Under the pieces are notes generated by a model. That model was not told where the DNA came from. It was given only the letters and a program-made list of their open reading frames with translations, and made no database searches. A DNA stretch of 64,000 nucleotides from an uncultured Paracoccaceae bacterium (GTDB lineage Bacteria; Pseudomonadota; Alphaproteobacteria; Rhodobacterales; Rhodobacteraceae), in contig CANLDA010000002.1 in the NCBI GenBank assembly GCA_947489325.1, positions 310,001-374,000 of the forward strand, read 5' to 3'. A program made the translations under genes and the position numbers. Shown here one piece after another: positions 7,265-26,308 of this stretch (position 1 is the stretch's first letter; each line of letters opens with the position of its first letter).

Positions 7265-7915
7265 ATGGAACATGATTTAGCGCCTGATATGTGGCCATTA
7301 AAGCGGGGTGATACGTTATCCAATCACGATTGGTTCCCGTTCCATTCGCATCGGTTCTTGTCGTCTAGGTTTGTGTCAATGTCTTGCATGAAGAACCGCA
7401 GGGGTGATTTGGGCACGGCTGTCATGTTGTGGTCAGAAGCAATGCGTCAAGACCCGGCTGGCACCTTGCCGACCTGTGATTTTGAGTTAGCCAACCTTGC
7501 GCGATACGCGACGGTTGAGGACTGGTTAGAGGTCAAGGACGGCGTTCTATATGGTTGGGTGGATGTGTTGGTTGAGGATGCAAATCTTGCCGATCCGGTC
7601 AAACGTTTAGGGCACACGGGGTTCATGCAGTCCATTGTACAGGACATGCATAAGCGCAAAGCGGGGCGTGATGCCGCGCGCGAGGCGGGTAATCTTGCCG
7701 TCAAGAAAACGCGCATCCGCAAAAAGCTGCTGGAGATGCAGGTCGAGCCGCACATCATCGCAGACGACCGGGCGATTCATGAGTTGGCAGAACACTTCCA
7801 TCATTCAGGGTTGTACATCACCTACGACAACTTGCGCACGGCCATGGTCGAAGTTCTTGGATATGGTGGACAGGTCCGAAAGTTCCCCGGAACGGAACGA
7901 TCATCGGGCGACTGA
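7265..7915 (+). CDS. DUF1376-like phage replication protein
   Basis: A 216-residue protein. The N-terminal region (WFPFHSHRFLSSR, then GDLGTAVMLWSEA) resembles the DUF1376 domain seen in phage replication initiators and helicase-loader-like proteins, which has a winged-helix character. The basic middle (KKTRIRKKL) may bind DNA. Just beyond its stop lies a cluster of CTGAAAT repeats that could be its binding site and an origin. No other replication gene is visible in the window, so it is the best local candidate initiator. Confidence 0.6.
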   Translation: MEHDLAPDMWPLKRGDTLSNHDWFPFHSHRFLSSRFVSMSCMKNRRGDLGTAVMLWSEAMRQDPAGTLPTCDFELANLARYATVEDWLEVKDGVLYGWVDVLVEDANLADPVKRLGHTGFMQSIVQDMHKRKAGRDAAREAGNLAVKKTRIRKKLLEMQVEPHIIADDRAIHELAEHFHHSGLYITYDNLRTAMVEVLGYGGQVRKFPGTERSSGD

Positions 7916-8101: not shown

Positions 8102-8689
8102 ATGAACAGTGCAGAACAAAAAGCGGGTGAAAAGCAGGTGAGTGAGGTGTTGATTGTGCCTCTGTTGCTGTTGGGCATGACAAAGCATTCAACGCTGACC
8201 AAGGCCGCATTTGAGGCGATGCTGAACGAACTGCGCCAAAAGCTGGCCTATATGTCAAAGGATAACCTAATCCAGTTGCGGGAACGGATTGAGGCGCATC
8301 CGGCTGGACCTGAAAAGGATAGGTTCCCAAAGGCAATCACCATCTTGCCGTGGGCCCGTGCGATTCAACCGCCGTCAGATGTTGGGCCGTCGCCATTGAT
8401 CCGCAAGGTCATGAGCAGCCCTCTTGGGCGCGAGGCTTTGGCAAAGGGGTGGGCACCAGAGCTGTTGGCGCATGTCAAGGCAGTGCGTGAGTGGCCGGGA
8501 AATTGGACGGTGACGAAAATCAAAGAAAGTGCAGATCGTGCCATTGGCAGGCTTGGGGACATAGAGTTGCGCATGTCGCGTTCTGAGGATGTTGGGGCGG
8601 ATGATCTGCGGTGGCGTGATGAGCGGATGGCGCAAATACGCCGCTGTCAAGACATCGCCGAAATGGCTTTGAGTGAGGTAGGGGCGTGA
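8102..8689 (+). CDS. Phage hypothetical protein upstream of the NusG paralogue
   Basis: A 195-residue, mostly helical protein with a clear ribosome site (AGGAG) before the ATG. The C-terminal half is rich in Glu and Arg (RLGDIELRMSRSEDVG, then DERMAQIRRCQD). I do not recognise the family. Its stop overlaps the region containing the possible starts of the NusG-like gene, so the two are translated together and may act in the same early-to-late step. Confidence 0.6.
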   Translation: MNSAEQKAGEKQVSEVLIVPLLLLGMTKHSTLTKAAFEAMLNELRQKLAYMSKDNLIQLRERIEAHPAGPEKDRFPKAITILPWARAIQPPSDVGPSPLIRKVMSSPLGREALAKGWAPELLAHVKAVREWPGNWTVTKIKESADRAIGRLGDIELRMSRSEDVGADDLRWRDERMAQIRRCQDIAEMALSEVGA

Positions 8690-8691
8690 GC

Positions 8692-9366
8692 ATGATGGGG
8701 CAGATCGAGGCGCGTGAGATGCAGTGGTTCGCGGTGCGTATGAAGCCCAAAAGCAACGGTGGACCACGCACGGCGCGTGTAGAGGTGAAGCGTGAAAGCT
8801 ATATCAACCGCGCAGGCAAACCTGCCTATCGGGATGTGAAGGGGTCGGGCAAGCGGGTCTTCCTTCCTGAGCATTTATTAAAGCGTGCTGGGTTTGAAGT
8901 CTTTTTGCCAGTGAAGAAGGTGTTGCGTATCAAGAACCGTTTCACCAAAGAAAAACATCTGGTGGCGGTGCCACTATTGGCCGATTGGATGTTCGTTGGG
9001 ATGCCGATTGTTCAATTTGAGTATGGTCAGGGTTTGCCCGGTTGGAAAACCTTGATGGACATGGATGTTGTTGCGGGTGTGATGGGGACAGGTGGAAGGC
9101 CAATCATGATGTCAGACCGGATGATGATGCGTCTGATGCGTCAATTTGGTGGGGATCGGATTGCGCCTGAGATCAAACGGCGAATGGTAGCACGCAGAAA
9201 TTTCGAAGTGGGTGATACAGCACGGGTGGTGAATGGTCCGTTGGAAGGTATAAACGTCTTTATTGTTGATATTGCAGGGAAAAATGCAAAGGCCGTATTG
9301 AATATCTTGGGTGGAAATTTTGAAATTGAAATCAATGCAGACCTATTGACTAAGGCTGAACAGTGA
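8692..9366 (+). CDS. NusG-family (NGN-KOW) antiterminator paralogue
   Basis: A 224-residue protein. The NGN domain opens with WFAVRMKPKS at residue 12, continues after a 45-residue insertion with FEVFLPVKK and PLLADWMFVGM, and ends with VVAGVMGTGG. A C-terminal KOW domain starts near residue 171 (VGDTARVVNGPLEG). Specialised NusG relatives such as RfaH and LoaP bind RNA polymerase and carry it through terminators. Here the gene sits immediately before a promoter, leader and terminator and then the late genes, which is the position of lambda Q. The GTG at 8686 is an alternative start. Recruitment signal and target operon are inferred. Confidence 0.85.
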   Translation: MMGQIEAREMQWFAVRMKPKSNGGPRTARVEVKRESYINRAGKPAYRDVKGSGKRVFLPEHLLKRAGFEVFLPVKKVLRIKNRFTKEKHLVAVPLLADWMFVGMPIVQFEYGQGLPGWKTLMDMDVVAGVMGTGGRPIMMSDRMMMRLMRQFGGDRIAPEIKRRMVARRNFEVGDTARVVNGPLEGINVFIVDIAGKNAKAVLNILGGNFEIEINADLLTKAEQ

Positions 9367-9390
9367 AGGGATATCGCGCCCGATTGCTGA

Positions 9391-9419
9391 TTGTTAAGTG
9401 TCGGGCGCAAATTGTTAAG
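9391..9419. repeat. Paired TTGTTAAG repeats before the late promoter
   Basis: TTGTTAAG occurs at 9391-9398 and 9412-9419, 21 bases apart, ending six bases before the -35 element at 9425. The reverse complement, CTTAACAA, occurs three times at 11001-11039 upstream of the terminase small subunit. This suggests one phage protein binds both regions. Confidence 0.55.
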
Positions 9420-9424
9420 GGCTG

Positions 9425-9453
9425 TTGACAGATTTAGGAAAACTGAGTTAACA
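9425..9453 (+). promoter_or_regulatory. Strong sigma-70-type promoter, candidate late promoter
   Basis: A consensus -35 (TTGACA, 9425-9430), a 17-base spacer and a -10-like TTAACA (9448-9453) are followed by about 165 bases without a gene and then an intrinsic terminator. The predicted start is near 9460. Confidence 0.65.
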
Positions 9454-9459
9454 CGGAAT

Positions 9460-9624
9460 CAGGATGACCCCAAGTCCCTGCCAAAAGAGGTAATCACAGC
9501 GAAAGCTGGAAGTGGCATACCGAGGCCCCCGGATAGGTGAAAAGGCAATAGCCGGTCACCGCGTCTAAAATTAAGAGATATGCCCAAAGGCAAAGCCCGG
9601 CTGCAAAGTCCGGGCTATTTTTTT
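9460..9624 (+). ncRNA. Candidate terminated leader RNA (6S/put-like)
   Basis: This non-coding stretch between a strong promoter and a terminator would give an RNA of about 163 nt. It contains a GAAA-tetraloop hairpin (CAGC/GCTG, 9497-9508) and a two-part stem (GGTGA/TCACC, 9536-9560, enclosing GGC/GCC). The layout matches the short RNA made from lambda pR' in the absence of Q. A role as the loading signal of the upstream NusG paralogue is inference. The start is predicted, not measured. Confidence 0.45.
9594..9624 (+). terminator. Intrinsic terminator of the late leader
   Basis: AGCCCGG (9594-9600) pairs with CCGGGCT (9610-9616), followed by ATTTTTTT. It would block the late genes unless RNA polymerase is modified. 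Confidence 0.85.
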
Positions 9625-9657
9625 ACGTGGCATCGGCATCGAGGGATGCGCGGTGCT

Positions 9658-9672
9658 TTGTCATTCTGACAA
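9658..9672. promoter_or_regulatory. Short operator-like palindrome
   Basis: TTGTCAttcTGACAA is a perfect inverted repeat 27 bases before the start of the secreted-protein gene at 9699. It differs from the repressor half-sites by one base per arm and could keep this gene under phage control. Confidence 0.35.
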
Positions 9673-9698
9673 TGATCATTCCAAGATTGGAGACTGTA

Positions 9699-10061
9699 AT
9701 GAAGCGAATTATCACGGCTGGATTGGCCGCTATTTCTGGACTTATGCTTGCAACTGTTTCGATGGCGCATCACGCGGATGCTGATTTGATGGTGGGCCAG
9801 CTGGTCCATGGTGAGATTTATGAACTGACGCTTGTGCCGAATGGTGCGGACCTACTGGCTGTGTCTGAGGCCATGGAAGGCGTTGATGTTGTTCCAGACG
9901 GCTCGGTTGCCGCAGTGGTTCTGTCCTTCCAACAAACATCTATCACTGAACCCATGTCGGCGCGCGCCTCGTTGTCTGTGTCCAAAGTCGATGATGCAAT
10001 GCGCCTGTGGCGTTCGCGTGTCGCGAATTCGATTACCGTCCAACCCTATCTGCTGATTTAA
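9699..10061 (+). CDS. Secreted small protein, terminator-flanked accessory gene
   Basis: A 120-residue protein with a classical signal peptide (MKRIITAGL, hydrophobic core, cleavage likely after SMA, about residue 23). The mature part is a small beta-rich domain with no recognised family. GGAG at a suitable distance favours the ATG at 9699 over upstream starts. It is boxed by terminators at 9594-9624 and 10085-10118, the arrangement of a lysogeny-expressed accessory gene (moron). A periplasmic role in the host is inferred. Confidence 0.65.
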   Translation: MKRIITAGLAAISGLMLATVSMAHHADADLMVGQLVHGEIYELTLVPNGADLLAVSEAMEGVDVVPDGSVAAVVLSFQQTSITEPMSARASLSVSKVDDAMRLWRSRVANSITVQPYLLI

Positions 10062-10084
10062 GGCGTAGGGCCTGAGAAATGATA

Positions 10085-10118
10085 AGCCGGATGCAGAATG
10101 CTGCGTCCGGCTTTTTTT
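10085..10118 (+). terminator. Intrinsic terminator after the accessory gene
   Basis: AGCCGGAtGCAG (10085-10096) and CTGCgTCCGGCT (10101-10112) form a long stem with one mismatch and a 4-base loop, followed by seven T residues. It is the second terminator the late transcript must cross. The stretch to 10308 holds no convincing gene. Confidence 0.85.
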
Positions 10119-10308
10119 GTAAGTGCAGCGGCGTTGAAAGCTGGTTGATCACCATAGAGAAACGCGTGGCCTTGGTTGGTGCTGAAAGCAATGTGTCTGG
10201 ACTATATCCTGTAAGACCGAGACGGCAGGTGTGAACGCCGGAATAAACCCAATCACGCTGGATAGTCGGAGTAGCGCCCGACCTGTGCTTGCTAATAGAG
10301 GTGTCGGA

Positions 10309-10875
10309 ATGTTCAAGATTGGTGAAGTCGATGTCAAAGGGCTTGAGCAATACGGCAATATGTTGGGTGCTCTTGGTTCTGTAGAGGCCCCAAAGGTGCA
10401 GGCGCGTGCTCTAAACCGGACAGGCGATATGGCGCGCACACAGGTGGTTAAGGCGCTGGCAAAGCAAACTGGGTTGCCGCAAAAGACAATTCGCAAGGCG
10501 CTTCATGTCAAACGCTCTTCATGGACGTCTTTGGACTATGTGATCTATTCACGGGGCGGCAACATTTCGTTGAAGTATTTCAAGCCACGGGAAACCCTAC
10601 GGGGCGTGACTGCCTTGGTGCGTGGTGAACGTGAGTTGTTTGAAGGCACGTTCATGAAGGGTGGCAGCTTTGTGAAGGGGCGTGTGGACATCGGTATGGG
10701 TGGCCATGTGTTTGAACGCATCGGAGGCCGGACTGAGCTGGAGCGTGTGCGGTCGGGTGTCTTCATTCCTGATGAGATGATCCAAGGCGAAAGTGTTGCG
10801 GCCTTTGACCGCGTCGTCAAAGAAGTATTGCCGCGCCGTGTCGATCATGAATTGAACCGCGCGCTGGGGATTTAG
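10309..10875 (+). CDS. Phage minor tail protein Z-like (GPZ family)
   Basis: A 188-residue protein. The ATG at 10309 follows GAGG and matches the natural N-terminus (MFKIGEVDVKGLEQYG); an upstream in-frame ATG at 10231 is less likely. The block ARALNRTGDMARTQVVKAL, then TGLPQKTIRKAL, is typical of prophage minor tail protein Z, a neck or tail completion component. In lambda, Z follows FII; here it lies before the terminase genes, as in some mosaic prophages. Confidence 0.7.
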   Translation: MFKIGEVDVKGLEQYGNMLGALGSVEAPKVQARALNRTGDMARTQVVKALAKQTGLPQKTIRKALHVKRSSWTSLDYVIYSRGGNISLKYFKPRETLRGVTALVRGERELFEGTFMKGGSFVKGRVDIGMGGHVFERIGGRTELERVRSGVFIPDEMIQGESVAAFDRVVKEVLPRRVDHELNRALGI

Positions 10876-10942
10876 GGGCTGTTGCTGCCCTTAAATTCAT
10901 TAAATCTAACGCCCAAAAATCTAGGGACCGTAGCCCATATCG

Positions 10943-11039
10943 ACCGCGCGCGGTGCGGAAGCAGCCCGAGGGTTCGGTAGTCAGACGCTGTTTGGGAAGC
11001 CTTAACAAATGGGGATTGCTTAACAATTGGGCTTAACAA
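10943..11039. other. Candidate cos site (cosN-like palindrome plus three direct repeats)
   Basis: The perfect GC-only 12-bp palindrome ACCGCGCGCGGT (10943-10954) is followed at 11001, 11019 and 11032 by three direct copies of CTTAACAA, and then by the small terminase gene at 11071. Lambda has the same order: cosN, three R sites bound by gpNu1, then Nu1. The assignment is by position and pattern only. The rest of 10876-11070 has no gene. Confidence 0.4.
11001..11039 (+). repeat. Three CTTAACAA direct repeats
   Basis: Copies at 11001-11008, 11019-11026 and 11032-11039, all in the same orientation. The same 8-mer in inverse orientation occurs twice before the promoter at 9425. Confidence 0.65.
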
Positions 11040-11070
11040 AAATGGTTGATGATTGGCTTTGAAAGAATAG

Positions 11071-11778
11071 ATGACTGATGCCGTTGAACATATGAGCCAA
11101 GCCGATTTTGGGCGGCATATGGGTGTTAGTCGCGCTGCAGTTTCACAGTGGAAAAGTAAGGAAATTCTGACTGAAGCTGCGTTCACAAAGCCCGGCAAGA
11201 AAGGAAAGGTGGTCGTCGCTGTTGCGATTGAAGAGGTCCGCAAGAACAGGGACATTGGTCAATCATGCGGGAATGGTTTGGATACCAAGCCTAAAGTGGA
11301 TGAACCCCCGGCACCAATTGCGCCCGGACTACCGCTTGAGCAACCTTCGAGTGATGAAGATGCCTCTGAAACTCTGAAGACTGGCGAGATTAAAAAAGCG
11401 CCGGCTGACAATTCTGGGACTATCGAAAAAAAGGATTCTGTTGAGGATCTCATCAAGCAAGCCAAGCTGGAAGAGCAGCTTCGAAAAAATCGACAGGCAG
11501 CGGCTGAAGAAGCGCTGCGGTCTGGCTTGCTTATTGCTTCTGATGATGCCCGAGAACAGATGGGACGGGTGGCCGTTACTTTGCTTCAAACCTTCGACGG
11601 GGCCTTGCCTGATTTTGCGACCGCGCTTGCTGAAAAGTTTGGAATCCCACAGCGGGATGCACTTCATTTGCTGAAGGCAGAATTTGTAAAGGTGCGGGAT
11701 AAGGCTTCAAAGAAAGAGCGCGCGCGATCTGAACAAATGAAATCCAAAGATAAGGTTTCCATTTCGGAGGATTCATAA
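11071..11778 (+). CDS. Terminase small subunit, Nu1-like
   Basis: A 235-residue protein with an N-terminal winged-helix/HTH (MSQADFGRHMGVSRAAVSQW, residues 8-27) as in lambda gpNu1, a Pro/Glu/Ser-rich linker, and a long helical C-terminal part starting near LIKQAKLEEQLRK that should bind the large subunit. It recognises the packaging site on phage DNA. It is directly followed by the large subunit with a 1-base overlap (ATAATG). An alternative start at the internal Met, residue 8, is possible. Confidence 0.8.
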   Translation: MTDAVEHMSQADFGRHMGVSRAAVSQWKSKEILTEAAFTKPGKKGKVVVAVAIEEVRKNRDIGQSCGNGLDTKPKVDEPPAPIAPGLPLEQPSSDEDASETLKTGEIKKAPADNSGTIEKKDSVEDLIKQAKLEEQLRKNRQAAAEEALRSGLLIASDDAREQMGRVAVTLLQTFDGALPDFATALAEKFGIPQRDALHLLKAEFVKVRDKASKKERARSEQMKSKDKVSISEDS

Positions 11779-13727
11779 TGTTGGACATCGATGTCGCCAG
11801 TGCCGAATGGATGATGCATGATGTCTTGGCGGACGTGTTGGACCCACCGCCAGATGTCGATTATTTGCAGTGGGCTGAAACCAACATCGTGTTTTCCAAA
11901 CGTGAAAGCCCGATGCCAGGACCGTACAATCGGGAGCGGTTTAGTTATTTTGATGAAATCCTGAAGGCTCTTTCGCCGGATGATCCGTGCCGGATTGTGA
12001 CTTTGTCAAAATCTGCGCAACTGGGCGGCACAGTTCTGGCAAACATATTCACGGGCGGGTCGATGGATATGGACCCCGGCGATTTTCTGTATGTCCACCC
12101 GACTGAAGAAAACGCCCGTCGCTGGTCTAAAATGAAATTGTCCCCGATGTTGAAAGGCACCGAGGCGCTCAAGAATATCTTCCCGCAAAAGGCGCGGGAC
12201 GGGCAGGATTCAGTTTCATACAAGGAACGTAAGGATGGCCGGGGAGCCATTCAGATATCAGGCGCGAATTCGCCTGCGTCGCTGTCACAAGTATCAATGT
12301 CCCGACAGGTTCAGGATGACCTAGCCAAATGGGAAATGAACAATGCAGGTGATCCTGAAACGCAGGCTGACAGCCGCTCTCAGGGGTATGAGTTTGCCAA
12401 AATCTTCAAGATTTCGACGCCTTTGGTTATGCCGGGGTGCCGGATTACGACTAGTTTTGAGGCTGGATCGCAAGAGTATTTGCACGTGCCGTGCCCGCAT
12501 GATGAATGCGGTCATATGCATGTCCTGGAGTGGGAGAATTTCCTAGCACATCTGGATGAAGAGCATCCAGAGAATGCCCACTTCACTTGCCCCGATTGTG
12601 GGGCCGAGATCCACGAACATCATCGCGCCAAGATGTTGAAGGGTGCAGAGTGGGTTGCTGAGAATCCAAAGATGATGCGTGTGCATCGGTCGTTTCATAT
12701 CTGGTCGGTCTATTCATGGCTGCAATCCTTTGAACGCATTGCACGTTCATGGATCGCGGCCAAAGGTGATCCTGCGAAGGAGCAAACGTTCCTGAATGAC
12801 GTTGTAGGGCGTGCTTATCGTTTTATCGGGGATGCGCCACCATGGGAGGAATTGCGCGACCGGGCAATGGAATCCAGCTATTCGCGGGGATTTATTCCGG
12901 CGGGATATCCGTATGTGACGTGCGGTGTGGACGTGCAGGGTGATCGGGTTGAATGGCAGGTGGTGGCGTGGGGTCCGCGAAAGCGTCGCGCTGTGATCGA
13001 ATATGGTGTGTTCCAAGGCTACATTGGAGATGATGATTGCCGTACAAGTTTGAATGGCTTGGTGAAACAGACCTATGCGAATGCTTATGGTCGCAAAGTC
13101 GGCATTGATTTGTTGGCGATTGATGGCAACGCATACACAGAGGACGTCTGGGGGTGGGTTAAAAAACACCCTGCATACAAGGTGATCATGGTGCGTGGAC
13201 GTCACGAGGAACATGTGGCGCTGATCGAACGGGTGAAGAAAGAGAAGAACAAGCAGGGCAAAGTCGTCAACTATTCTCGACGGTTTTATAATTTTGCCAC
13301 CTCAATCCTGAAAATGAGTTTTTACAAGAACGTCAGGAAAGATGATCCAGAATTGACGGGGCATGTTTTGTTTCCGCGTGGTTTGGATGAAGAATATTTT
13401 CGGCAAATCACAGCAGAGAGCCGCAAGGAAACGATCACTAAGACGGGTCATAAAAAGTTTGCATGGGTGAAAGACCCCAACCAAGCCAATGAAGGTTTGG
13501 ACACAATGATGCAGGCGGAGGCCGCATTTATTCGAAAGTCCGGTACCACGCGCGATCTGATGGACGATGAATGGAAACGCTTGTTTGCTGAGCGCGAATG
13601 CCCACCCGAAGATTTGCAAGGTGATTTTGAAGATTTGTTGATGGCAACACAGCCCCAAGCGGTTGCGCCACCATCAGAAGAAGACAGCGTGAATCAGCGC
13701 ATCCGTAATAAGTGGAGCAAGAAATAG
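11778..13727 (+). CDS. Terminase large subunit, gpA family
   Basis: A 649-residue packaging ATPase and endonuclease of the lambda gpA type. The Walker A-like loop SKSAQLGGT is at about residues 77-85, with an acidic Walker B region downstream and a C-terminal nuclease domain (VDVQGDRVEW, then LAIDGN). Two Cys pairs (CPHDEC, CPDC) near residues 240-275 form a probable zinc site. It pumps DNA into the procapsid and cuts at cos. The length is usual for the family. Confidence 0.93.
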   Translation: MLDIDVASAEWMMHDVLADVLDPPPDVDYLQWAETNIVFSKRESPMPGPYNRERFSYFDEILKALSPDDPCRIVTLSKSAQLGGTVLANIFTGGSMDMDPGDFLYVHPTEENARRWSKMKLSPMLKGTEALKNIFPQKARDGQDSVSYKERKDGRGAIQISGANSPASLSQVSMSRQVQDDLAKWEMNNAGDPETQADSRSQGYEFAKIFKISTPLVMPGCRITTSFEAGSQEYLHVPCPHDECGHMHVLEWENFLAHLDEEHPENAHFTCPDCGAEIHEHHRAKMLKGAEWVAENPKMMRVHRSFHIWSVYSWLQSFERIARSWIAAKGDPAKEQTFLNDVVGRAYRFIGDAPPWEELRDRAMESSYSRGFIPAGYPYVTCGVDVQGDRVEWQVVAWGPRKRRAVIEYGVFQGYIGDDDCRTSLNGLVKQTYANAYGRKVGIDLLAIDGNAYTEDVWGWVKKHPAYKVIMVRGRHEEHVALIERVKKEKNKQGKVVNYSRRFYNFATSILKMSFYKNVRKDDPELTGHVLFPRGLDEEYFRQITAESRKETITKTGHKKFAWVKDPNQANEGLDTMMQAEAAFIRKSGTTRDLMDDEWKRLFAERECPPEDLQGDFEDLLMATQPQAVAPPSEEDSVNQRIRNKWSKK

Positions 13728-13729
13728 CT

Positions 13730-15334
13730 GTGACTGGCCTTATCAAAAAAGCGATGCGGTTGATGCGTCCAAATGGTTCGCAAAGTGCAGATGGTTCTGT
13801 TTCTAACCGGACCACTGCGCGCTATTTGCGTGACACGAAAAGCGGCGCGATTGCATCACGGGTAGCGCCGCTGACAAACAGCCGGGATGACATCCGGCGC
13901 GCTTGGTCGCGCAGCGCAGGTTTGGCCATGGACCTAATCCAGAATTCAGGCCGTCTGAAGGGGGCTTGTGACCAAGTGATTGCAGACACCGTTGGTGTTG
14001 GTTTGACCTTGAACCCTGACCCGGACCTGACCGGGCTTGGTTATTCGGATGAAGAAAAGGCTGAATTCATTCGGGTGTTGAAGCGCCGCTGGAAGGCGTT
14101 CTGGCACGACAAAAATGAATGCGACATGCGGGGCAAATTGAGCGGCCCACAAATGGTCGATATTGGCCTGCGGTGGGACATTGCCTTTGGGGAAGTCACG
14201 GGTGTCTTTGATTTCTTCGATGATACTGACCGCAGCCACTATGGCATTGCGACCGGAACAAAGTTGTGTCTGGTGCCACCGCAGAAGTTGGTGCAGGACA
14301 CCAATGCGCTTGAAGGGATGTTTCAGGGCGTGCGTCACGATGGCAAGGGACGTCCAGTCGCTTATCGTTTCGATACCAGTCTCGATGGCGCGCGCGCTAA
14401 ACGTGACTATGCGGCGTTCGATACAGATGGCCGACCGATGGTCATGCACATTTTTGACCCGATGGACGCCACGGATGTCCGGGGGATATCAAAACTGGCA
14501 CCTGCATTTCGCAAACACATTCAGGCTGAAATGCTGGATGATGCGACCCTGCAAATGGCGTTGCTGCAAACCATCTTCGCCATCACATTGACTTCGGAAA
14601 CGCCAAGCGCTGACGCATATGAAGCCTTGGAAGTCCTGAAGGAACAGGGTGGCGACGGGATTGAATACGGCAAGGAATATCTTGGCTATTTGGCAGGAAG
14701 TCTGGATGCAGCGGCTGACAGTCGAATTTCGGTTGGTGCTGACCCGCAAGTTTCGCACTTAGGACCGGGACAAAAACTCGGCTTGGAAACGGCCAATGTT
14801 CCAGGCAAGGATTTCCTGCCATTCTCGAACAGCCTTGCGCGTGACATGGCGCGCACTATTGGGTGTTCATACGGCGGTTTGACCATGGATTACACTGATG
14901 CATCTTATGCCAGTGTTAGAATGGAAACGTCGTCATTGTGGCCTGTTGTAACGCGTCGGCGCGAACGCACAGCCGCACCTATGTGTCAGGCTGTTTATGA
15001 GAACTGGTTGGATGAAGAAATCGGCGAAGGCCGTATCCCCTTCAAAGGCGGGTACGCGGCATTTCGTGCACATCGGAAACGTGTTTGCGTTGCTGCATGG
15101 CAAGGACCAGCCAAACCAACAGCGGATGATTTCAAATCAGCGAGGGCATCGACTGAACGTTTGCGCAATGGAACAAGTTCAATCGCTCAGGAAACCGGTG
15201 ATCTTGGGGTGGACCCGGATGCATTGTTTGAAGAGCGTCAGCGCGAACATCAACGTTACTTGGATGCTGGGATGGAATCGCCTTATGCCGCTAAATCCGC
15301 AGCACCTGTTGTTCAAGCGGAGGTAGTTGAATGA
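13730..15334 (+). CDS. Portal protein, lambda gpB family
   Basis: A 534-residue portal subunit forming the dodecameric ring at the DNA entry vertex. Typical features are RRAWSRSAGLAMDLIQNSG near the N-terminus, KGACDQVIADTVGVG, the HIFDP segment, and IGCSYGGLTMDYTDASYAS near residue 385. The probable start is the GTG at 13730, just past the large-subunit stop; an upstream GTG at 13712 is also in frame. It lies between terminase and the gpW-like gene. Confidence 0.9.
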   Translation: MTGLIKKAMRLMRPNGSQSADGSVSNRTTARYLRDTKSGAIASRVAPLTNSRDDIRRAWSRSAGLAMDLIQNSGRLKGACDQVIADTVGVGLTLNPDPDLTGLGYSDEEKAEFIRVLKRRWKAFWHDKNECDMRGKLSGPQMVDIGLRWDIAFGEVTGVFDFFDDTDRSHYGIATGTKLCLVPPQKLVQDTNALEGMFQGVRHDGKGRPVAYRFDTSLDGARAKRDYAAFDTDGRPMVMHIFDPMDATDVRGISKLAPAFRKHIQAEMLDDATLQMALLQTIFAITLTSETPSADAYEALEVLKEQGGDGIEYGKEYLGYLAGSLDAAADSRISVGADPQVSHLGPGQKLGLETANVPGKDFLPFSNSLARDMARTIGCSYGGLTMDYTDASYASVRMETSSLWPVVTRRRERTAAPMCQAVYENWLDEEIGEGRIPFKGGYAAFRAHRKRVCVAAWQGPAKPTADDFKSARASTERLRNGTSSIAQETGDLGVDPDALFEERQREHQRYLDAGMESPYAAKSAAPVVQAEVVE

Positions 15335-25416: not shown

Positions 25417-25829
25417 TGGATTTTACAGAAGGCTTCATCAAGACGACAAACATTGCGGCCTTGCGCGCATGGCTGTCAGTCATGCAGGGCGCGACATCCC
25501 GCCGGATTTCGTCAGATATCACCATCGCGGCACCGAATGGCCACGCGCTGATCCACCTGCGCATTCCAACGGCGGATGTGATCCCCCTGACGCAACTGGC
25601 CGGGGCCAGCGGCGTATCCATCGAAATATTGGCACAGGCCCCATATGACGCGACACAAGGGCCTATGGGCATGCTTGCGTTGGTCTATGCCGCACTTGAC
25701 GCCAATGCCACGGCACGCGCCGATTACGATGCTATCCGAGGCGCTGCAACGCAGGTTATTCGCACGCTGGATGGCGATGACGTGCCCATTGATGTTGCCG
25801 TCGCCCCTGCTTTTGGGGGGATTGCATGA
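25416..25829 (+). CDS. Tail-associated hypothetical protein
   Basis: A 137-residue protein overlapped by both neighbours. It is mixed alpha/beta with segments such as NIAALRAWLSVMQG and VIPLTQLAGASGVS. No family is recognised. It belongs to the fibre/accessory block between gpH and the sheath. Confidence 0.5.
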   Translation: MDFTEGFIKTTNIAALRAWLSVMQGATSRRISSDITIAAPNGHALIHLRIPTADVIPLTQLAGASGVSIEILAQAPYDATQGPMGMLALVYAALDANATARADYDAIRGAATQVIRTLDGDDVPIDVAVAPAFGGIA

Positions 25830-26308
25830 AACAGTATCTTGCCTTTTATCGCGGCAAGGGGCGTTGGGATGATCATATTGTCCGTGCCGCCACGCGCAGC
25901 CAGTTCAGCCATGTTGAACTGGTTTTGCCAGATCCGGGTTTTAACCCTGATAAGGACGTATGCATCGGGCAAATTTTGTCTGCCTCTGGTCGTGATGGTG
26001 GTGTGCGCGAAAAAACCGTATGTTTTGCCAAGGAAAACTGGACCTTCAAAGAGGTGTCAGATTGGGCGCATCCATATGCCTACGCGAGAGCGCAGCGCCA
26101 TATTGGTGCGCCATACGATTGGGTTGGCATTGCGTTCAATTTTGTCATTCCTATCCGGCGGCAGAACAGTCACGCGTGGTTCTGCTCAGAATTGTGTGGT
26201 TGGGCCTTGGGTCTGTCTGAGGCTTGGACGCTTTCGCCGGGTGATCTTTCGTTGCGCATAGACGAATTGAATGAAGCCTCTGAGAAGGCGCGCAGGCCCG
26301 ACCTTTAG
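25826..26308 (+). CDS. Permuted NlpC/P60-like cysteine peptidase
   Basis: A 160-residue protein with the circularly permuted papain-like arrangement of YiiX/YaeF relatives: His in QFSHVELVL (about residue 29), GAPYDWVG, and the catalytic Cys in HAWFCSELCGW (about residue 120). Such enzymes cut peptide or amide bonds in cell walls or lipids. In a tail module it may open the peptidoglycan during DNA entry. A terminator follows. Confidence 0.75.
   Translation: MKQYLAFYRGKGRWDDHIVRAATRSQFSHVELVLPDPGFNPDKDVCIGQILSASGRDGGVREKTVCFAKENWTFKEVSDWAHPYAYARAQRHIGAPYDWVGIAFNFVIPIRRQNSHAWFCSELCGWALGLSEAWTLSPGDLSLRIDELNEASEKARRPDL

Follow-up and report, generated by a model that had tools for sequence, protein, structure and literature searches.

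A NusG paralogue and its structured leader RNA as a probable late antitermination switch in alphaproteobacterial phages

The window analysed here is a stretch of 64,000 nucleotides from an uncultured Paracoccaceae bacterium, and the locus described below (8692-15334) is read on its forward strand. The window belongs to a prophage, whose early operon ends, in order, with a DNA methyltransferase gene, a gene weakly matching a replication protein (7265-7915), a gene of no assigned function (8102-8689) and a gene for a NusG-like protein of 224 aa (8692-9366). The gap between the stop codon of this gene and the TTGACA of a predicted late promoter is 58 bases. The promoter was identified by direct reading as TTGACA-N17-TTAACA (9425-9453, with TTGACA at 9425-9430 and TTAACA at 9448-9453). 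Two TTGTTAAG octamers, recognised by over-representation and conservation, lie 5' of its -35 element (9391-9398 and 9412-9419). The promoter is followed by a non-coding leader RNA, termed type A (9459-9592; model R1, 168 bits), and by terminator t1 (9594-9624), which has a stem at 9594-9616 with a GCAA loop and one bulged base, and a T7 run to 9624 (-15.9 kcal/mol). A small secreted protein, without Pfam or PHROG match and with relatives in L146-L149, is encoded between t1 and t2 (9699-10061). Terminator t2 (10084-10118) has a 13-bp stem and a T7 run (-23.9 kcal/mol, z -6.5). The late operon starts with genes for tail completion/minor tail Z, TerS, TerL and portal (10309-15334) and continues with protease, capsid, sheath and baseplate genes, all assigned using Pfam and PHROGs. 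The original prediction had given the order of NusG-like gene, promoter, leader, terminator and late genes, and when the sequence was re-read all of its coordinates were correct to the base. A candidate second structured RNA at 10185-10308 was rejected, its fold being no better than shuffles. The phage also carries an enoyl-CoA hydratase-like gene among its tail genes (25826-26308; phrog_1128).

The late promoter and t1 were both left unflagged by a simple promoter/terminator scanner, because the -10 element is without its final T and the t1 stem is bulged. The reality of these two predicted elements rests on conservation. In relatives, the t1 stem carries double changes from U-A to G-C and from G-C to A-U.

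The protein encoded at 8692-9366 matched Pfam NusG at 31.3 bits (cut-off 22.2), corresponding to the NGN domain, and phrog_6386 'transcription antiterminator' at 9e-17. A profile search of PDB sequences returned both NusG NGN and KOW. The KOW domain starts near 9202, and this C-terminal part matched isolated NusG KOW domains (e.g. 1nz9, 4.6e-6). Pfam KOW was seen at sub-threshold level only, in relatives. An AlphaFold model of moderate confidence (pLDDT 76, pTM 0.67) was closest in the PDB to NusG, to RfaH and to the NusG of the lambda N complex, and its KOW domain fitted 2mi6 at 1.4 Å. The host genome encodes a separate NusG of its own (90.4 bits), making the window protein a second copy. No match to a Q-type protein was obtained; only NusG and antiterminator families matched this gene. 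The protein is thus a specialised NusG/Spt5 paralogue with NGN and C-terminal KOW domains, distinct from host NusG, and its sequence is far from those of LoaP and RfaH. By reading of the sequence, its N-terminal part contains a basic-rich insertion (residues about 20-55, lying between strand 1 and helix 1), which could possibly make an extra contact with RNA or DNA.

Homologues were reached only via divergent relatives, as tblastn of the window protein against phage records gave no match. A relative with 54% identity was present in a second genome of the same bacterial family. Virus contigs were scanned with the pattern TTGAC-N34..46-CCAAGTCCCTG, which contains no coding sequence, and six matches had a NusG-like gene just 5' of the pattern; with 16 fixed bases this first scan returned mostly chance matches, and only contigs with a NusG-like protein were retained. 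Further contigs were added by a profile search for the protein. Separate scans, each using just the promoter, the early leader motif or the terminator, reached contigs with NusG-like genes in every case; the terminator-pattern matches L168, L170, L176 and L177 were discarded as unrelated coding DNA. Every contig with the NusG-like protein carries a leader, including L151 and the L150 contig, in which the distance to the leader downstream is about 4 and 5.6 kb. Every leader contig carries the protein, with the sole exception of L178, a contig that stops 2.4 kb upstream of its leader. Gene and leader have decayed side by side in the degenerate prophage of G294. Another decayed prophage, L025:8348-9182, has a NusG-like gene broken by a frameshift and the remains of a leader (28.9 bits). 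No type C leader (see below) was found elsewhere in 388 family genomes. Two weak type C matches in host genomes, one protein-coding and one beside transposase-like sequence, were without the protein and were judged to be chance.

The NusG-like gene is the last before the late operon in the window and about 25 contigs. On these sequence comparisons the predicted NusG-leader module is present in about 30 phages of Rhodobacterales, and chance is ruled out. A search of related prophages for the same gene order had been proposed with the original prediction, which named the loss of the leader beside homologous NusG-like genes as a finding against it. The order is conserved in these about 30 phages, six rhizobial phages have it in outline, and the leader is conserved beside the homologous genes.

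The leaders of the Rhodobacterales phages fall into types A, B and C, which have the promoter and terminator in common and differ in fold. Covariance models of the three types gave no cross-matches, and all types, including type D of the rhizobial phages, were below gathering thresholds in Rfam 15. Type A was also found in L146-L149, L091, L178, L180, L151 and the L150 contig. Its consensus fold has a closing helix of 9462-9466 with 9562-9566 (RNAalifold; 97.5% of cells paired), a helix of 9479-9483 with 9513-9517 around a GAAA-loop hairpin at 9494-9510, and a two-part stem at 9536-9560 (9536-9540 with 9556-9560, and 9544-9546 with 9551-9553). In L091/L147 the second of these helices has changed at both bases of a pair, from C-G to U-A. 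The observed changes gave no support to two further type A candidates, a pseudoknot and a GGCAUA/UAUGCC pairing. The predicted CAGC-GAAA-GCUG hairpin is present at 9497-9508; it is not universal, the loop being GCCA in L091/L147 and the other types folding differently, so the recognised feature is probably not the GAAA tetraloop. UUCG is confined to a subset of type B leaders and to a loop of varying sequence.

Covariation was counted as double changes, i.e. pairs altered on both sides, with kinship ignored. Type B had 12 of 51 such pairs and type C 21 of 54, both above all 500 shuffles. Type D had 4 of 11 among six phages, a count reached by 5 of 500 shuffles. Type A had 3 of 32, reached by 27 of 500 shuffles (8 sequences, 91% identical). 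When the pairing was slid by 1-3 columns the signal disappeared in types A, B and C. Compensatory base changes are therefore strong in B and C, clear in D and weak in the window's type A, and the test for covarying leader pairs suggested with the original prediction came out in its favour to that extent. Taken singly, the window leader folded only slightly better than its shuffles (z about -1.4 to -2), and therefore the single sequence could not have proved a structure. Identity between the window and its relatives was 82-89% for the leader, 67-71% for the NusG-like gene and 71-72% for tail Z. The L179 type C leader has AAAGGCRAUAGCCGGU in common with window 9541-9556, at the equivalent place, and the L202 type C leader has a UGC-NNNN-GCUAUG element in common with type D. 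Because of these common elements, the leader types may be distantly related.

The promoter is conserved across leader types A-C. The pattern TTGTTAASGG-TTGAC-N-TTAAC was found in 25 IMG/VR contigs, 21 of which had a leader type 3' of it; L182, L183, L187 and L188 were unrelated. Among 394 family genomes the exact pattern occurred in the window only (0 of the 393 others), and the promoter of G015 differs in the last base of the pattern. The TTGTTAAG octamer was found 6 times in the window against 1.05 expected (9391, 9412, 11001, 11019, 11032 and 35302), with two copies at the late promoter and three just 5' of TerS. The copy beside the -35 element is kept at nearly all related late promoters, and the pairing of late-promoter and TerS sites recurs in most related contigs. 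From this placement, TTGTTAAG could be a shared operator or a binding site for TerS (HTH), possibly tying packaging to late transcription. A CtrA site at the late promoter was dismissed by eye, its spacing being unsuitable.

Recruitment of the paralogue by DNA was considered at this point. The protein would bind a non-template pause element, as RfaH does at ops, or the promoter, as lambda Q does, and the leader would be a separate small RNA. Such a scheme could draw on the promoter conservation and on CCAAGTCCCTG, which is located at about +10 to +20, at constant promoter distance, in the window leader, in part of the other type A leaders and in nearly all of type B. CCAAGTCCCTG was nevertheless rejected as a universal element of the ops kind, being altered in L146/L148/L149/L178 and absent from type C. 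The NGN domain of type C proteins reaches 97% identity with its counterpart in a type B protein, and base pairing is what stays conserved throughout the leader. We regard DNA recruitment as unlikely. The ops element GGCGGTAGCGTG was not seen in the window leader when read by eye, and no DNA motif common to all leader types was found.

The position of the terminators is the strongest sequence argument for antitermination, as the late genes appear to lie behind them. The first late gene begins 35, 47 and 74 bases after t1 in L159, L171 and L180, respectively, and is reachable only by read-through since another promoter hardly fits the shortest of these gaps; late transcription must then cross t1, whether it comes from the late promoter or from further upstream. 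L155-L158 have a second terminator, whose end lies about 30 bases ahead of the first late gene. A second hairpin with T-run was present in about 20 of 25 contigs; a clear second terminator was not seen in L178, L180 and L181, and a simple search gave no terminator in L206. The t1-t2 slot holds only a stub of 3-4 codons (e.g. MKRI*, MKR*) in L153, L155-L158, L163 and L091, and because of these stubs it looks like a cargo site that has been filled and emptied; the secreted-protein cargo is a stub or absent in several relatives.

A short, conserved, structured RNA that ends at a terminator could also be an attenuator or riboswitch opening t1 alone, or an RNA acting in trans on the host, with the NusG-like protein in some other role. 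No conserved alternative pairing that opens t1 was noticed, and the CCGGGC of type C is lost in L171, L179 and L186. In L202 the terminator sequence differs and the leader is kept. Together with the near-perfect coupling to the protein, these observations make such a reading very unlikely.

The part of the protein that would read the RNA was examined by comparing its two domains. The nearest neighbour of the KOW domain had the same leader type in 26 of 26 proteins, against 20 of 26 for NGN, many of the proteins being close relatives and not independent. Two B/C pairs, L153/L156 and L159/L158, are mosaics: the gene is about 95% identical up to base 500, the start of KOW, and identity then drops; promoter and leader are unrelated; identity resumes at t1. 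KOW, promoter and leader therefore move as one block. Joint exchange could be mere linkage, because KOW and leader adjoin, and cases of unlinked gene and leader are too few to separate linkage from function. The B/C pairs are natural swap experiments on RNA recognition by a NusG-family protein. Some type C proteins (L161:5001-5873, L186:7496-8467 and L195) have at their C-terminus a zinc-ribbon tail similar to the restriction alleviation protein Lar, with scores below the Pfam cut-off.

The put RNA of HK022 and EAR RNA bind polymerase directly. The leaders are large, folded, strongly conserved and placed right at the promoter, and the leader RNA itself might likewise be the antiterminator, the NusG paralogue aiding processivity in the way that ConAn1 assists conAn2; in conAn, a pair of protein and RNA already described, the RNA antiterminates. 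A polymerase-binding RNA ought, however, to be the conserved part, and here several dissimilar folds serve the polymerases of related hosts and the protein is constant. RNA and protein also co-occur almost without exception. An RNA antiterminator is, in our judgement, improbable.

Cases outside the main group were found in a phage-plasmid and in rhizobial phages. The phage-plasmid NZ_CP083549.1 of Leisingera sp. M658 (Roseobacteraceae, Rhodobacterales), the one named bacterial relative with the module, encodes a NusG-like protein that shares 50% identity with the type C protein of L156. Its type C leader scored 97 bits with a model in whose building it was not used. The promoter is present, followed by a strong hairpin unlike t1 with a weak T-run, and the module precedes unrelated late genes with a different packaging module. 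In six rhizobial-type phages, namely phi2LM21 and phi3LM21 (Sinorhizobium), vB_MseS-P1 (Mesorhizobium), vB_RleM_PPF1 (Rhizobium), Rivra (Agrobacterium) and a 'Nostoc phage', an annotated NusG or antitermination gene is the last early gene. It is followed by a type D leader, CCCUGA...UCAGGG and then GUGC-NNNN-GCUAUG; a hairpin with T-run comes next in 5 of the 6. The genes downstream are those for HNH/terminase or tail completion. In the protein tree, from which the host NusG branch was left out, the rhizobial-phage proteins form a separate, more ordinary NusG lineage, and the rhizobial and Rhodobacterales groups may therefore be convergent or very old relatives. L207 (PP395642.1), deposited as a Nostoc phage, has genes and leader like those of the rhizobial phages, and on this resemblance its stated host may be wrong. 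For the unexplained 'NusG' genes annotated in phi2LM21, phi3LM21, vB_RleM_PPF1, vB_MseS-P1 and Rivra, the module supplies a predicted function.

Most members of the main group have tail/terminase synteny and common descent, as they would if a phage copy of NusG had come to lie beside a late promoter by chance and the order had simply been inherited. L202 and the rhizobial phages, however, keep the order of NusG-like gene, leader and late genes with other packaging genes, and the contigs with gene and leader kilobases apart retain both. Inherited synteny as the whole explanation is hardly credible.

In our assessment the module is quite probably a late antitermination switch in which a NusG paralogue takes the role of Q and is recruited by the nascent leader RNA. 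This reading is based on the architecture and its conservation, the RNA folds, the coupling between leader and protein, and the pair of terminators that late transcription would meet. The Q-like order of last early gene, late promoter, terminator and late genes behind it is present in the window and its relatives. Before the paralogue is made, the late promoter would give a short RNA ending at t1 (9616-9624). The paralogue, as the last product of the early operon, would then join RNA polymerase during transcription of the leader. The folded leader RNA would recruit it, probably via the KOW domain, and the NGN domain would sit on the polymerase as in NusG or RfaH. The modified polymerase would pass t1 and t2 into the packaging, head and tail genes. 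From sequence we infer the transcription start, the recruitment by RNA, KOW as specificity part, processive read-through and the timing. The late-switch interpretation put forward for this locus is thus supported, with both proposed computational checks passed, and extends beyond the window. The wider proposal we hold to be evenly balanced: that alphaproteobacterial phages have an undescribed, widespread class of late switch with a NusG paralogue in place of Q, whose KOW domain reads the leader that matches it. KOW and leader would pass between phages together as one specificity cassette, and the class would comprise at least four RNA families. These would be new structured RNAs with partner proteins.

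In lambda, Q is the last early gene before pR', a short RNA is terminated at tR' and the late genes lie behind the terminator. The module resembles this arrangement in gene position, in the predicted short terminated RNA and in late genes behind a terminator. Q, however, is unrelated to NusG and is loaded via promoter DNA and a sigma-dependent pause. The LoaP class antagonises NusA-dependent termination. Its small UNCG hairpin differs from the 130-160-base folds of the phage leaders; no UNCG-type hairpin of the LoaP class was found in the window leader, the loop being GAAA there and GCCA in L091. At the dfn leader of Bacillus velezensis, the NusG paralogue LoaP is recruited by a hairpin and relieves an intrinsic terminator (PMC12691694). 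A NusG paralogue, a leader RNA hairpin, a strong intrinsic terminator after it and, as predicted here, read-through of further terminators are the points of likeness, but LoaP is chromosomal, serves antibiotic operons in Gram-positive bacteria and has another gene neighbourhood (PMC12691694). RfaH is likewise a specifically recruited NusG paralogue that spares polymerase from termination; it differs in using a DNA element, in acting on host operons and in being weak on intrinsic terminators (PMC7819879). In conAn of pLS20, a protein and an RNA from the operon start allow many terminators to be bypassed, but this is a conjugation operon of Gram-positive plasmids and the RNA antiterminates (PMC8955417). 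GafZ of the Caulobacter gene transfer agent places an alphaproteobacterial phage-like late cluster under antitermination; it is promoter-bound and works with host NusG, without NusG paralogue or leader RNA (PMC11150451). For a Helicobacter pylori prophage, a NusG-like protein was proposed to act on lysis genes, but the authors liken it to lambda N and describe no promoter, leader or terminator (PMC11321410). NusG-paralogue reviews name RfaH, LoaP, TaA and UpxY, and in the passages covered no phage late switch of this kind is named (PMC7819879). The earlier statement that no NusG-paralogue late switch has been described holds for the openly available papers searched, among which the passing Helicobacter prophage proposal is the only precedent (PMC11321410). 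The module would join NusG-paralogue antitermination, as in the host operons of RfaH and LoaP, with phage late control, as exercised by Q proteins.
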